This document shows positions 5,997 through 27,562 of a stretch of 28,993 nt of DNA, one piece after another; the first letter of the stretch is position 1; each line of letters starts with the position of its first letter. The DNA lies in IMG/VR virus record IMGVR_UViG_3300037321_000095, positions 1-28,993 of that record; one strand, 5' to 3'. The notes under the pieces are model-generated. The model was not told the origin of the DNA. It saw nothing but the letters and a program-made list of their open reading frames with translations, and made no database searches. A program made the position numbers and the translations under genes. Source of the DNA: a virus.

Positions 5997-6275
5997 CTAA
6001 AGCTTAGCCGCTGCAGCGCTCGGGTCAAGCATGTTTGCTTTCGCCTTGACGACGAGCCCGCCCTTCTGCAGCCGCGAGGAAAGCGCGCCGGGCTGCACGG
6101 CCAGCAGAAGCGTCGACAAGTCGGCGCCAGCGCGCTCTAAGTCGCCGAGCGCGAGCTCAATGACGACGCCTATATTCATCGCCCCGCCGAGCCGCAAGTC
6201 TGTGCTGTCAATAGTGCGATGCACCGCCACGCCGCGAGGCAACGCGACCCCGTCGTTGTCGTCGTCGTCGCTCAC
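5997..6275 (-). CDS. Hypothetical protein partnered with a ribbon-helix-helix regulator
   Basis: A 92-residue unrecognised protein. It starts with an acidic tail (MSDDDDNDG) followed by a likely folded helix/strand core (MNIGVVIELALGDLERAGADLSTLLLAVQPGALSS). Its ATG overlaps the stop of the regulator upstream by four bases, so the two are a co-translated pair. A two-gene unit of a small RHH protein plus a small partner resembles toxin-antitoxin or repressor/anti-repressor layouts, but nothing in this sequence looks like a known toxin fold. Confidence 0.65.
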   Translation of the reverse strand: MSDDDDNDGVALPRGVAVHRTIDSTDLRLGGAMNIGVVIELALGDLERAGADLSTLLLAVQPGALSSRLQKGGLVVKAKANMLDPSAAAAKL

Positions 6276-6541
6276 GACGTCACGACCGTCGAGCTGGCGC
6301 TTGTGCCGCTGGCGCGCAGCGCGTAAAGCCGGGCTGCGTTGACGAGCTCAAAAAGCGGCGCGCCGTATTGTTCACTGATTGACACCAGCTCAGCGCCGGC
6401 GTCTAGGCGCTCGCGCACGACGTCGGCCTTTGAGCGCTGCTGGTTGAGCGCTGCCGCTTCGATTGCGTCGGCTTGCTCGTGGCTGAGCATGACCGCCAAA
6501 GATCGCGGGAAGCGCGCCGGCGGCATTGTCTGGGAAGCCAT
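6272..6541 (-). CDS. Ribbon-helix-helix (CopG/MetJ-like) regulator
   Basis: An 89-residue candidate DNA-binding protein. Residues about 12-50 fit the ribbon-helix-helix pattern: a short strand (RSLAVMLS), helix 1 (HEQADAIEAAALNQQ), a turn with KADV, and helix 2 (VRERLDAGAELV). I choose ATG 6541 because AAGGGGG lies eight bases upstream; an upstream start at 6574 would place that Shine-Dalgarno inside the gene. It faces away from the promoter at 6581, so binding to the TAGCGCGCTA palindrome at that promoter could control both directions. The target is inference. Confidence 0.65.
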   Translation of the reverse strand: MASQTMPPARFPRSLAVMLSHEQADAIEAAALNQQRSKADVVRERLDAGAELVSISEQYGAPLFELVNAARLYALRASGTSASSTVVTS

Positions 6542-6580
6542 AGCGGCGCCCCCTTTCATTAGTAGGTGATCCAACCCTAC

Positions 6581-6609
6581 TTGACGCGCCGATAGCGCGC
6601 TACTAGGCT
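6581..6609 (+). promoter_or_regulatory. Promoter of the methyltransferase operon (P2)
   Basis: TTGACG at 6581-6586, exactly 17 bases, then TAGGCT at 6604-6609. A perfect ten-base palindrome, TAGCGCGCTA, occupies 6593-6602 in the spacer and runs into the CTACTAGGCT element. The expected start is near 6616. The leader then forms a small hairpin (GCCCG at 6621-6625 with CGGGC at 6631-6635) just before the GAAAGG ribosome binding site of the gene at 6652. Confidence 0.8.
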
Positions 6610-6651
6610 AAGCAACGCAAGCCCGAAAGCCGGGCGGCAGAAAGGCTCGCA

Positions 6652-7107
6652 ATGTCTGAAAATATGTACGTCGTGACGCTAACGGCGAGCGAGCTCTCGC
6701 TCGTCGAGCGCGCTCTTGACCGCAAGCTTGAGGCAAAGCTCGCGCCCAAGCCGCGCGCAGCAAGGCCGAGCGCGGCCTCTCGCGACTGGCGGCGCTACGG
6801 TCGAGAGCTTGCCGACATTATGACCACGACGTCGACGCCGGAGCTTGAGGCGTGGATGGGGAGAAAGCGCACGCCCGGCTTCGCGCCCCGCCCCTTCGCC
6901 TCGCCCGCGGCGAGCAAGCCAAGGAAGGCAACGACCGCGCAGCGCCAAGATATCCAGCGCTTTGCCGAAGAAGCAGTCATGGCGTGGGAGCGCCTCGGGC
7001 ATGTTGTCATCGTTGAGCCCGGCACCGACTCGGCGGGCAAGCCTTCGACTGCGGTCGCACTCGACTGGCGCAACGTGCGCGTCTTGCCGCTGGGCGTGAC
7101 CGCGTGA
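6652..7107 (+). CDS. Hypothetical protein, first gene of the methyltransferase operon
   Basis: A 151-residue unrecognised protein. The N terminus (YVVTLTASELSLVERALDRKLEAK) looks like a strand and a helix. A basic, Ala/Pro-rich linker (KPRAARPSAASRDWRR) follows, then a second basic linker, and a C-terminal region with VMAWERLGHVVIVEPG and LDWRNVRVLPLG that is probably a small beta-rich domain. It sits directly behind the P2 promoter and its leader hairpin, with GAAAGG before the ATG. It ends in a GTGA overlap with the next gene. Confidence 0.75.
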   Translation: MSENMYVVTLTASELSLVERALDRKLEAKLAPKPRAARPSAASRDWRRYGRELADIMTTTSTPELEAWMGRKRTPGFAPRPFASPAASKPRKATTAQRQDIQRFAEEAVMAWERLGHVVIVEPGTDSAGKPSTAVALDWRNVRVLPLGVTA

Positions 7108-9810: not shown

Positions 9811-9839
9811 TTGACGCGCTACTAGCGCGCCACTATGCT
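9811..9839 (+). promoter_or_regulatory. Promoter of the nuclease operon (P3)
   Basis: TTGACG at 9811-9816, 17 bases, then TATGCT at 9834-9839. The spacer carries GCGCTACTAGCGC at 9817-9829 with its leading G at 9816-9817, an odd palindrome with six-base arms. Further AGCGCT lies just upstream at 9800. The expected start near 9846 is followed at once by a hairpin, AGCCCG 9849-9854 with CGGGCT 9860-9865, then AAAGG and ATG 9883. Confidence 0.8.
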
Positions 9840-9882
9840 TGAGGTATCAGCCCGGCACGCGGGCTCAACGAAAGGTCACCTA

Positions 9883-10188
9883 ATGTCAGATCGTACACTC
9901 GCCCAGATTGCCGCCTCGTTGATCGTTGTCCCCGAGGGCTTGACCGCTCGCGAGCTTCACGTCGAAGCAATGACCGCCTCAATGCGGGCCAGCCGAACCG
10001 ACTTGCTTGACCTGCGCGAGCACCTGATCGCAAAGGCCCGCGTTTACCGCGACGCCGCCGCCGCTCTCGAGGCGGCTCGCGCCCTCAATCTAGACGACGA
10101 GCGCGAAGCGGGCGACGATTGCGAAGGCCACGAAACGACACGCGGGGCAATCGGTAGCGTTTTTTACTGTGACGGCTCGTGCGCGTGA
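9883..10188 (+). CDS. Hypothetical protein
   Basis: A 101-residue mostly helical protein of unknown function. The middle (LLDLREHLIAKARVYRDAAAALEAARAL) could form a coiled coil. Near the C terminus, CEGHETTRGAIGSVFYCDGSC contains three Cys and a His that could bind zinc. I use ATG 9883, preceded by AAAGG nine bases earlier. An in-frame ATG at 9835 lies inside the -10 box of the promoter and cannot be on its transcript. Confidence 0.7.
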   Translation: MSDRTLAQIAASLIVVPEGLTARELHVEAMTASMRASRTDLLDLREHLIAKARVYRDAAAALEAARALNLDDEREAGDDCEGHETTRGAIGSVFYCDGSCA

Positions 10189-10373: not shown

Positions 10374-12098
10374 ATGAGCAAAAAAGACAAGGCCGCTAAG
10401 GCCGCAAAAGCCGAAAAGCTGGCAAGCAAAATTGCAAAGCTTGAGGCTTTCGCCGCCGACAAGAGCAACCCTAAAGGCGACCGCAAGGCTGCCCGCCGCG
10501 AGGCCGCCCGTCGTGTTTTTGAGTCCCTGCCGACACACGGCGAGCCCGCGCCCGTCGCTCAGCTCGAGCCCGATCAGACTGACGCCGATGCGCGCAAGTC
10601 TGCCGAGCGCTCGCGCACTAAGGCGCTCGCCGCCACGATGAAAGCTCAGCCAGAACCCGCGCCCGTTGCCGAGCCGCAAGCCGACGGCGACGTCGCTGCT
10701 CGCGTGCAAGCTAAGCGGCTACTTCGTAAAGCCGGGCTAGCGACCGAGAGCGAGACCGGCGGCGCGCTGATCGTCGACCCCGACGACGTGCCGCGCGACA
10801 ACGCCGCGCTGGTCGCCGCCTACAACCTCGTCGTCGGCGTAACGACTGGGCACTACTTGACCAGCGACGACGAGCGCGCAGCCATTGACGCCCGCGTCGA
10901 GGCGCCCGACGTGAAGCGCAAGGCGAAGCCTGACGAAGTTGTCGTCGAGATTGACGGCGAGGCGCTTGCTAAGCCCGAAGAGGCCGCCGTCGATCCCGAG
11001 CCGGTCACGATCGCCGAGCACGAGGCGGTCGCCGTCGAGACGGAGAAGGGCCGCGAGTTTGCCGTCGGGCCCGCCGCCGCTGCCGCTGTCGCCGCGCACG
11101 ATATTGCAAAGCCGAGCGAGGCGCCCGTCGCGCTTGAGCAAAACGGGCTAAATCAGTACAAAATCAAGCACCCTGACACTGGAAAGATTGTCGGCTACAC
11201 GCGCGTTACGACTTATATCGCCAATCTCGAAGACACGAGCGCGCTCGACAAGTGGAGGCAACGGATCTTGCTTGAAGGGCTGGTCGCTAACGAGACGGCC
11301 GTCGGCACGACTGAGCGCAGCGCCGACACGGTGCCGCCTCACCTTTTGAGCATTATGCGTGACGCTATCCACGAGCGCGAGGTCGCGACCGCAAAGGCCC
11401 GCAAGGCCGACCGCAAAGGTAAGCTACTTCCGGGCGAGCTGGCCGAGCGCGTCGAGACGGCCATGCGGGCGTTCAAGAAAATTGCGGGCGACGTCGCGCA
11501 GCAAGCCCTAGACCTCGGCGGCGTGCGCGACGCGGCAACGAAAGGCACCGACTTGCACGCGCTGACTGAGCTTTGCGACGAGCACGGCCTCGACGCCGTG
11601 CAGGCAGAGCTTGACGCTGAGCGCATTACGCCGGCCGACTACGCCGATATCGCCGCCTACGACGGCGCCATGCGCCGCGCAGGGCTGAAAGTGCTCGAGC
11701 GCGAGCTGGTTGTCGTTGACGACGAGCGGCGCGTCGCCGGCCGCCTCGACAAGATTGTGCTCGGCAAGGCGACCCCCGACGCCGCGCGCGCAAGTCGCAT
11801 GGTCGCCGACGTGAAGACTGGGCGCATTGACTACGGCGCGGGCAAGATCGCGCAGCAGCTCGGCCTTTACGCCGGCGCGAAGCGTTACGACCTGGAGACG
11901 CACGAGCGCAGCGCCCACGGCGCTAGCCGCACGACGGCGCTGCTTATCCACCTGCCCGCCGGTACGGCAACGTGCTTTATTTACGCGGTCGACCTCAAGG
12001 TCGGCGCTATCGGTAACCGGCTCAGCGGCGAGGTTCGCGCCTGGCGCAGCGCCGGCAAGAAGGCCGTCAGCAAGTTTGACCTGGCAGCCAACCAATGA
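10374..12098 (+). CDS. RecB/Cas4-like PD-(D/E)XK exonuclease with a long N-terminal extension
   Basis: A 574-residue protein. The C-terminal half carries the PD-(D/E)XK nuclease signature in order: GTDLHAL (motif with His), VAGRLDKIV (metal-binding Asp), VADVKTGR (the D-x-K pair) and QQLGLYAGAKRY (QxxxY). Such nucleases resect DNA ends for recombination or replication. Only two cysteines are present, so the four-cysteine iron-sulphur cluster of true Cas4 is absent. The first 250 residues are Ala/Lys/Glu-rich and repetitive: a basic start (SKKDKAAKAAKAEKLASK), then acidic spacer, probably disordered or coiled. The ATG follows a GAGAAAAGAGA ribosome binding site. It is probably partnered with the SSB candidate at 13176. 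Confidence 0.8.
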   Translation: MSKKDKAAKAAKAEKLASKIAKLEAFAADKSNPKGDRKAARREAARRVFESLPTHGEPAPVAQLEPDQTDADARKSAERSRTKALAATMKAQPEPAPVAEPQADGDVAARVQAKRLLRKAGLATESETGGALIVDPDDVPRDNAALVAAYNLVVGVTTGHYLTSDDERAAIDARVEAPDVKRKAKPDEVVVEIDGEALAKPEEAAVDPEPVTIAEHEAVAVETEKGREFAVGPAAAAAVAAHDIAKPSEAPVALEQNGLNQYKIKHPDTGKIVGYTRVTTYIANLEDTSALDKWRQRILLEGLVANETAVGTTERSADTVPPHLLSIMRDAIHEREVATAKARKADRKGKLLPGELAERVETAMRAFKKIAGDVAQQALDLGGVRDAATKGTDLHALTELCDEHGLDAVQAELDAERITPADYADIAAYDGAMRRAGLKVLERELVVVDDERRVAGRLDKIVLGKATPDAARASRMVADVKTGRIDYGAGKIAQQLGLYAGAKRYDLETHERSAHGASRTTALLIHLPAGTATCFIYAVDLKVGAIGNRLSGEVRAWRSAGKKAVSKFDLAANQ

Positions 12099-12634: not shown

Positions 12635-12914
12635 CGCGGCCCTCGTTGCCGTCATGCTGGCGGGCTTCGGCTTTGCGGTCGCTTGCTTTAGCGCGTCGGT
12701 GATCTTGACTGCCTCGCGGCGGCAGACCGTTTTACCGGAGCGGCTGAAAGCCCGCCACGGCGGGCTGCCCGTCGCGGTAAGGCTTGAGCTCATGGATCGG
12801 CGTCATGCCCGTTTAGGGCTCGTCAAGATTGTCGCCGCCGCCTCTTTCTGGCTGGGCGTAGGCGGCGCAATCTGGGCGCTAGCTTGCCTTGGCGCGTTGC
12901 TATTGACTAACTAA
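12627..12914 (+). CDS. Two-span membrane protein
   Basis: A 95-residue protein with two clear hydrophobic segments, at about 4-29 (ALVAVMLAGFGFAVACFSAS) and 65-93 (IVAAASFWLGVGGAIWALAC and so on). They are joined by a basic loop (SRRQTVLPERLKARHGG) likely to lie in the cytoplasm. Function unknown; a role in the envelope or exclusion is possible. The ATG overlaps the previous stop by eight bases, and its 3' end holds the -35 box of the next promoter. Confidence 0.7.
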   Translation: MSDAALVAVMLAGFGFAVACFSASVILTASRRQTVLPERLKARHGGLPVAVRLELMDRRHARLGLVKIVAAASFWLGVGGAIWALACLGALLLTN

Positions 12915-12931
12915 GAGCGCACTACTAGCCT
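12903..12931 (+). promoter_or_regulatory. Promoter of the SSB/endonuclease operon (P4)
   Basis: TTGACT at 12903-12908, 17 bases, then TAGCCT at 12926-12931, with CACTACTAGCCT across the -10. The -35 lies within the last codons of the upstream membrane-protein gene. Transcription should begin near 12938, giving a leader of about 240 bases before the next start codon, far longer than from the sister promoters. Confidence 0.75.
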
Positions 12932-12937
12932 AGACTG

Positions 12938-13175
12938 ATAACTAAATATCCCCGAGACTCGACCGGCCTCGCGCCCCCCCGCGCGTCGCCAGTCGTCGGG
13001 CGTGGCTCTTGAGAGCTAGGCAGCGCCCCCCGCTGCCGACTGGGAGCAATACCTAGCCGCTCACGAGCCGCCAGTAGAGACCGGCATTTCTACTGGCGGC
13101 GTACACTCCCCCGCTGCTGCGGGCGAGCTCGACACCGATAACGGCCCGAGTTGATCCGAAAGAAAGGCGCCAATT
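12938..13175 (+). ncRNA. Long structured 5' leader (candidate regulatory RNA)
   Basis: A gene-free leader with four hairpins in a row. They are GCTCT 13005-13009 with AGAGC 13012-13016; GGCAGCG 13019-13025 with CGCTGCC 13031-13037 around a CCCCC loop; a perfect 12-base stem, GCCGCCAGTAGA 13067-13078 with TCTACTGGCGGC 13089-13100, around a ten-base loop; and CCCGC 13110-13114 with GCGGG 13119-13123. None is followed by a U tract. An AGAAAGG ribosome binding site precedes ATG 13176. Possible roles are feedback by the encoded DNA-binding protein, RNA stability, or a single-strand initiation site. Confidence 0.5.
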
Positions 13176-13637
13176 ATGGCGAAAGACAAAGACAAAAAGA
13201 GCAAGCCCGGCAAAGGCGCGGCAAAGTCGGCTGGGTTCGCCGAAGGGTTCGCGAAGCCCAGCGAGGCTCCAGCCGGCGGCGAAGGCTGGAATATGACCGA
13301 GCAAGCTGAGGGCAAGCTCTTGCTCTTTATGCCGCTGCGCGAAGAGAGCGTCGAGACGGCAGACTACGGCGCGAAGCCCGTCATCGTTGCCGACGTCGTC
13401 GTGCTCAACGAGAAAAAGCCCGCAAAGTCTGAGGCGCACCCCGAGGTCTTCGTCTGGGGCGGCTACCTTCGCGGCGCCCTGCGCGGCTTTATCGGCGAGC
13501 GCCGCGTGCTGGGTCGCCTTGTGCGAGGCACGACCAAAGAGCGCGGCAACTTCCCCTGGCTCTTAGAAGACGCGACCGACGAAGAGACGGCTATCGCCGT
13601 CGCCTACCTCGAGAGTGTCGACCCCTTCAGCAAGTAG
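13176..13637 (+). CDS. Putative single-strand-DNA-binding-like protein
   Basis: A 153-residue protein. A basic, disordered N terminus (AKDKDKKSKPGKGAAKSAG) precedes a beta-rich core: GKLLLFMPLREESVETADYGAKPVIVADVVVLNEKK, then EVFVWGGYLRGALRGFIG, GRLVRGTTKERGNFPWLLED and a C-terminal AVAYLES helix. This core is common in actinophages next to replication genes, and I believe it is an OB-fold-like DNA-binding protein, though that is recalled rather than tested. It is behind its own promoter and long leader, suggesting strong and regulated expression. AGAAAGG lies upstream of the ATG. Confidence 0.5.
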   Translation: MAKDKDKKSKPGKGAAKSAGFAEGFAKPSEAPAGGEGWNMTEQAEGKLLLFMPLREESVETADYGAKPVIVADVVVLNEKKPAKSEAHPEVFVWGGYLRGALRGFIGERRVLGRLVRGTTKERGNFPWLLEDATDEETAIAVAYLESVDPFSK

Positions 13638-13645
13638 CCCCGACC

Positions 13646-13690
13646 GCCTGGCGGCCCGTAGCGCACCCGAAGCGCCGCGGGCCGCCAGGC
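13646..13690 (+). terminator. Strong hairpin, probable terminator or attenuator
   Basis: GCCTGGCGGCCCG at 13646-13658 pairs perfectly over 13 bases with CGGGCCGCCAGGC at 13678-13690; the loop is 19 bases. It begins seven bases after the SSB-like stop. There is no U tract, so it may be partial, reducing expression of the downstream genes relative to the SSB-like gene, or may protect the 3' end of the message. Confidence 0.6.

Positions 13691-26857: not shown

Positions 26858-27562
<705 letters not shown>

Follow-up and report, generated by a model that had tools for sequence, protein, structure and literature searches.

The window, meaning the whole stretch of DNA analysed here, is a 28,993-base IMG/VR virus record of an actinophage, in which the replication and recombination genes lie mostly on the plus strand and the structural genes on the minus strand. 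At the centre of this analysis are a plus-strand gene starting at 13176, which encodes a protein of the PHROG_870 family (the 13176 protein), and the leader in front of it; between this gene and a RecB-like exonuclease gene upstream lie two or three small ORFs. The features of the locus are as follows.

10374..12098, plus strand: RecB-like exonuclease gene (phrog_466, E 3e-53), also the syntenic upstream neighbour in relatives
12903..12931, plus strand: SigA-type promoter P4, TTGACT-N17-TAGCCT; since it ends at 12931, the transcript is predicted to start at about 12938, which gives a leader of about 240 nt
12938..13060, plus strand: additional structured domain (about 120 nt) in the upstream part of the leader, seen in the minimum free energy (MFE) fold (z -3.0), with hairpins at 12951-13000, 13019-13037 and 13040-13056
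13067..13100, plus strand: hairpin 1, with GACC in its loop, aligned with relatives (z -6.2 for 13062-13103); probable homologue of their putative kissing hairpin 1
13106..13127, plus strand: hairpin 2, CUC-CCCGC-UGCU-GCGGG-GAG, where relatives have their putative kissing hairpin 2
13128..13150, plus strand: hairpin 3, directly before the Shine-Dalgarno (SD) tract
13155..13175, plus strand: SD tract CCGAAAGAAAGG, weakly structured (mean unpaired 0.57-0.62), aligned with CCCGAAAGAGAAAGG of relatives
13176..13637, plus strand: gene for the 153-aa PHROG_870 protein, with an OB-like predicted fold and the C-terminus ...DPFSK; proposed SSB-like protein and regulator
13646..13690, plus strand: terminator-like hairpin 3' of the gene with 19-nt arms, with counterparts after the gene in the relatives folded

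In a scan of 160-nt windows, the hairpin at 13646-13690 gives the strongest folding z anywhere in the window, and the leader also ranks near the top of the folding signals across the 29 kb. Every relative folded likewise has a strong hairpin after the gene, comparable to the one at 13646-13690 and mostly without a long T run. A P4-like promoter, TTGACG-N17-TAAGCT, was read from the sequence at the corresponding place in L017. Two further plus-strand promoters of the P4 form occur in the window at 6581-6609 and 9811-9839 (TTGACG-N17-TAGGCT and TTGACG-N17-TATGCT), each with one small hairpin and an ATG about 43 nt on, which agrees with the short leaders that a preliminary description of this DNA had ascribed to these sister promoters; the succession of promoter, hairpin, AAAGG site and ATG at 6581-6652 and 9811-9883 suggests a repeated promoter-hairpin-RBS cassette. 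The early region, otherwise on the plus strand, also contains a minus-strand promoter-like site, TTGACC-N16-TAAGCT, at 6001-6028 and a minus-strand ORF (6272-6574) matching an Arc-like repressor (phrog_3431), and a putative head scaffolding protein encoded at 26858-27562 on the minus strand carries about 15 aspartates in a row near its N-terminus.

The leader at 12938-13175 folds with an MFE of -105.2 kcal/mol, as compared with -84.8 +/- 4.6 in shuffled sequences (z -4.49, with 0 of 200 shuffles as good, and z -4.19 in a second shuffle run), and both of its halves are more stable than their shuffles, with z -3.0 for 12938-13060 and z -3.7 for 13061-13175. The perfect 12-bp stem GCCGCCAGTAGA / TCTACTGGCGGC with a 10-nt loop, reported earlier, is present exactly at 13067-13100, where as RNA it forms 14 pairs closed by the 6-nt loop CCGGCA; perfect hairpins of at least 12 bp number 2 in the whole window versus 1 in total across 10 dinucleotide shuffles of it. 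The preliminary description had counted four hairpins in the roughly 240-base leader, and while stem-loops in a stable fold are indeed found, their number in the MFE structure exceeds four (12951-13000, 13019-13037, 13040-13056, 13067-13100, 13106-13127 and 13128-13150). The four hairpins are in fact two things, namely a lineage-specific upstream domain and a conserved element at 13067-13150. The upstream domain at 12938-13060 has no counterpart in relatives, whose leaders begin directly at hairpin 1; a possible alternative kissing pair within it, GCUAGG/CCUAGC (13043-13061 with 13005-13021), was spotted by eye.

Syntenic homologues of the 13176 gene were identified by tblastn in the Microbacterium phages Isperia, Wyvern, OscarSo, SM23 and FuzzBuster; ten further IMG/VR loci and one contig of a Frankiales MAG came from a profile search. 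All five named phages have the gene between the exonuclease, on its upstream side, and an endonuclease VII on its downstream side; in FuzzBuster the counterpart of the exonuclease is a hypothetical protein matching it in size and location. Complete leaders were available for 11 loci (the five named phages, L010, L011, L012, L015, L016 and L019) and a partial one for L009, the sequence of which begins inside the element and includes its 3' part. The complete leaders share one plan, in which hairpin 1, with a G+C-rich stem of about 13 bp and a large loop containing GACC, is followed by a short linker, hairpin 2, hairpin 3, an open A/G-rich SD tract and the ATG. The GACC of loop 1 is invariant across all complete leaders and the window, and the SD tract is mostly unpaired (0.57-0.82 in the window and relatives). 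Hairpin 3 is found in 10 of the complete leaders and is missing from L019, in which hairpin 2 is weak yet still supplies a perfect 7-nt partner for loop 1. RNAalifold, run on 10 leaders without prompting, recovered hairpins 1-3, with 14 of the 25 pairs changed on both sides.

In all 11 complete leaders, the loops of hairpins 1 and 2 are complementary over an uninterrupted run of 6-7 Watson-Crick pairs, with sequences that differ between leaders while the complementarity is kept:

GUGCUGC/GCAGCAC: Isperia, Wyvern and L016, with six of the pairs in OscarSo
GUGCUG/CAGCAC: L010 and L012
GUGAUGC/GCAUCAC: L011
CGCUGAC/GUCAGCG: SM23
AUGCUGA/UCAGCAU: FuzzBuster and L015
GGUGACC/GGUCACC: L019

Loops fit their own partners better than permuted ones, with P 5e-5 over the 11 leaders and P 0.002 over the 6 distinct types. 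When the loop-loop helix is included in the alignment, double changes are seen in 18 of 33 pairs and 89% of the cells are paired, versus 30-59% in slid controls; the covariation score of the full structure exceeds that of all 500 shuffles, a control that ignores the relatedness of the leaders, a weakness from which the slid controls are free. The covariation in relatives for which the preliminary description had called is thus present, and the three-hairpin fold with its loop-loop pairing covaries strongly. As judged from these sequences, the leaders of the relatives probably form kissing loops or a pseudoknot between hairpins 1 and 2. In L010, L011, L012, L015 and FuzzBuster the complementarity to loop 1 runs on from loop 2 into the 3' arm of hairpin 2, for 8-10 bp in all, and the loop-loop pairing can be either a kissing complex or, with this extension, an alternative pairing that opens hairpin 2. 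Since G-U pairs occur on the plus strand, the structure is assigned to the plus-strand RNA. An element acting as DNA, such as a single-strand origin (as suggested earlier), a replication origin or a recombination site, would suit the strong inverted repeat and the position between recombination genes, but is highly improbable because pairing is kept through G-U on the plus strand only, and also in view of the dependence of the element on the start codon of one gene and its location downstream of a promoter.

The protein tree places the window inside a clade (support 100/100) in which 12 of the 13 other members carry the element, the exception being L013, the leader of which is shortened. The window leader keeps hairpins 1-3 in the same order directly before the start codon of the PHROG_870 gene (13067-13150), at comparable spacing; it also retains the GAGCCGCC start, the GACC of loop 1 and the SD tract CCGAAAGAAAGG. 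Unlike the relatives, it has a short loop 1 and carries the additional upstream domain. Its loops 1 and 2 can form 5 bp at best, including one G-U (CGGCA/UGCUG, P 0.14), and so fall short of the at least 6 bp of the family. The covariance model R1, built from the relatives without L009 and L019, gives the window leader 10.3 bits at the expected position; with filters off, E is 0.008 for the 501 bp searched, which does not reach significance at genome scale. That the window has lost the kissing element, its hairpins being unrelated replacements, would account for the non-significant loop pairing, the weak R1 score and the extra upstream domain, but is unlikely considering the shared order and spacing of the three hairpins relative to the ATG, the retained GACC, GAGCCGCC start and CCGAAAGAAAGG tract, and the position of the window protein within the clade. 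By these sequence features, the window leader is probably a divergent member of the conserved family. Its nearest relative, L003 (99%), ends inside the gene, and there is therefore no close relative with which to compare the window leader.

R1 recovers all members of the family, including the two left out of its construction, L009 (48 bits) and L019 (34 bits), and its credible matches comprise 12 loci, all directly before a PHROG_870-family gene. No further credible copy was found in the remainder of the same phage loci, nor any in roughly 2.1 Mb of further phage sequence chosen beforehand for containing the hairpin 2 or the loop 1 motif, and a search of 396 actinobacterial genomes returned three weak matches, none of them recognised before a PHROG_870 gene and all judged to be chance. 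As the credible R1 matches are confined to the leader of this gene, the element is tied to the PHROG_870 gene. The inspected distant homologues from Mycobacterium, Gordonia, Tsukamurella and Streptomyces phages are devoid of the conserved element. Several Streptomyces phage homologues have other strong hairpins in the leader, the big one being missing in YDN12 (L154); in L151-L154 and L144, all Streptomyces phages, a conserved promoter TTGACAC accompanies this different hairpin, which is large and highly variable (its absence from YDN12 being a natural deletion that could serve as a control). The earlier remark that the leader resembles no recognised RNA class was confirmed with Rfam, in which it matches no family at the gathering score and gives chance matches only (E up to 5) at a permissive threshold. 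Scanning IMG/VR for exact copies of the motifs of hairpin 2, the SD tract, the window's hairpin 1 and loop 1 yielded chance matches, already-known contigs or nothing, the results being screened with R1, and a distant blastn search with the window leader gave a single 20-base chance match. A survey of the literature on phage SSB genes with kissing-loop or structured-RNA leaders turned up the T4-type example alone. As far as could be searched, the RNA family and its gene association are undescribed, while operators formed by structured leaders are already known.

The protein encoded downstream belongs to a large family without a named function, PHROG_870, with at least 117 phage records, and searches of Pfam, NCBIfam and PDB sequences with it gave nothing convincing. 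An AlphaFold2 model based on 11 homologues predicts five strands and a helix at moderate confidence (pLDDT 71), and its PDB fold matches are weak, none with E <0.001, and largely OB-fold-like, comprising the PRD1 P12 SSB, SsbA, RPA70N and ribosomal S12/S17-type chains. The N-terminus is lysine-rich in the Microbacterium-phage clade. Bacterial SSB carries an acidic PF tip at its C-terminus, which the EPPF or EAPF ends of the homologues L142, L157 and L145, and the DPF near the end of many others, appear to resemble. Because the OB-like model, the C-terminal tips and the exonuclease neighbour come together, an SSB-like role is plausible, and the 13176 protein is tentatively regarded as SSB-like. 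The earlier designation of the gene as SSB-like is tentatively supported by the predicted fold, the weak SSB fold matches and the tips of some homologues, and is not matched by any sequence family.

The leader is best explained as a structured RNA that acts in cis within the mRNA of the 13176 protein and is a divergent member of a family conserved before this gene in a clade of actinobacterial, mostly Microbacterium, phages. The computations carried out here establish the conserved fold, the loop-loop covariation, the nature of the element as a plus-strand RNA, its fixed link to one gene and the open SD tract. By analogy with T4 gene 32, the leader may be an autogenous translational operator, a reading to which a probability of roughly 0.4 is given. 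In this model the 13176 protein, once in excess over single-stranded DNA, would bind the folded leader domain and spread over the adjacent single-stranded ribosome-binding tract, thereby shutting off its own translation; binding of single-stranded DNA, binding of the leader and repression are all inferred. Among the three functions considered in the preliminary description, i.e. an autoregulatory site, a riboswitch-like element and a single-strand origin, the first would fit the layout best, a riboswitch being a less likely alternative. Counting against the operator are the reduced leader of L013, a member of the same clade, and YDN12, which is without the big hairpin of related Streptomyces phages, so that the structure is not indispensable there. 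The weak R1 score and the non-significant loop pairing of the window, the weakness of the fold matches behind the SSB-like assignment and the lack of UUAAA-type repeats also speak against it.

The main rival to the autogenous operator, itself rather unlikely, is a 5' stabilising or processing structure, in which the stacked hairpins would protect an abundant monocistronic SSB-like mRNA from decay or define its processed 5' end, the hairpin downstream of the gene would guard the 3' end, and protein feedback would play no part. Such a role would be consistent with the high stability of hairpin 1 and its location near the 5' end, with the strong hairpin that immediately follows the gene, both here and in the relatives folded, with the accessible SD, and with the Streptomyces phage homologues, several of which have strong but unrelated hairpins in their leaders, suggesting that stability matters more than sequence; a mere stabiliser, however, would have no need for loops kept specifically complementary through compensatory changes, or for an unpaired GACC that never varies. 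Somewhat less favoured is control by a different factor (a small RNA, a metabolite, or a further protein of phage or host origin), with the leader serving as its operator or switch through alternative pairings. The invariant GACC would agree with it, as would the complementarity of 8-10 bp, the pairing of which would open hairpin 2, but the leader shows neither a plus-strand terminator-like site nor sequestration of the SD that could serve as an expression platform, its conserved unpaired core of GACC only is scant for an aptamer, and the element occurs with the PHROG_870 gene only. Transcription attenuation was dropped from consideration, there being no terminator-like site on the plus strand of the leader.

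Should the leader act as an autogenous operator, it may further represent a new RNA family, a kissing-hairpin operator for translational self-control by a single-strand-binding protein of actinophages. It would be a second solution to the same problem, without kinship to the pseudoknot of T4 gene 32, and the window would carry an enlarged and divergent version of it; this wider proposal is put forward as possible but doubtful. The phages with such a covarying leader before their SSB-like gene include culturable ones of Microbacterium (the five named above), in which an independent origin of SSB autoregulation by folded mRNA would be testable, and the element offers a functional handle on PHROG_870.

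Among known systems, the Streptomyces phages of the Woodruffvirus group are alike in having a PHROG_870 gene near an exonuclease with a promoter and strong hairpins before it, but differ in the sequence and in the hairpins themselves, which are not recognised as the conserved element. In T4, the gene 32 operator is a pseudoknot that nucleates cooperative binding of gp32 over the ribosome-binding site (PMC535899; PMC3014915). The gene 32 operators of T4, T2 and RB69 are similar to the present element in that a tertiary-paired fold in a phage mRNA leader lies 5' of an open ribosome-binding tract and precedes the gene of a single-strand-binding, or here a putative SSB-like, protein in a replication and recombination context. 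The T4 operator, however, is an H-type pseudoknot of about 28 nt followed by A+U-rich unstructured UUAAA repeats up to the ribosome-binding site, whereas the relatives described here have three hairpins, the loops of the first two being complementary, and an A/G-rich tract that is only partly unpaired and lacks UUAAA-type repeats. The element is G+C-rich, about 110 nt long and without homology to the T4 operator, the likeness resting on layout, and membership in the T4-type class was rejected on account of the missing H-type pseudoknot, UUAAA repeats and homology. In kissing-hairpin RNA pairs such as ColE1 RNA I/II and OxyS-fhlA, the loops of two hairpins pair as proposed here, but between two RNAs, whereas in the actinophage element both loops lie in one leader.
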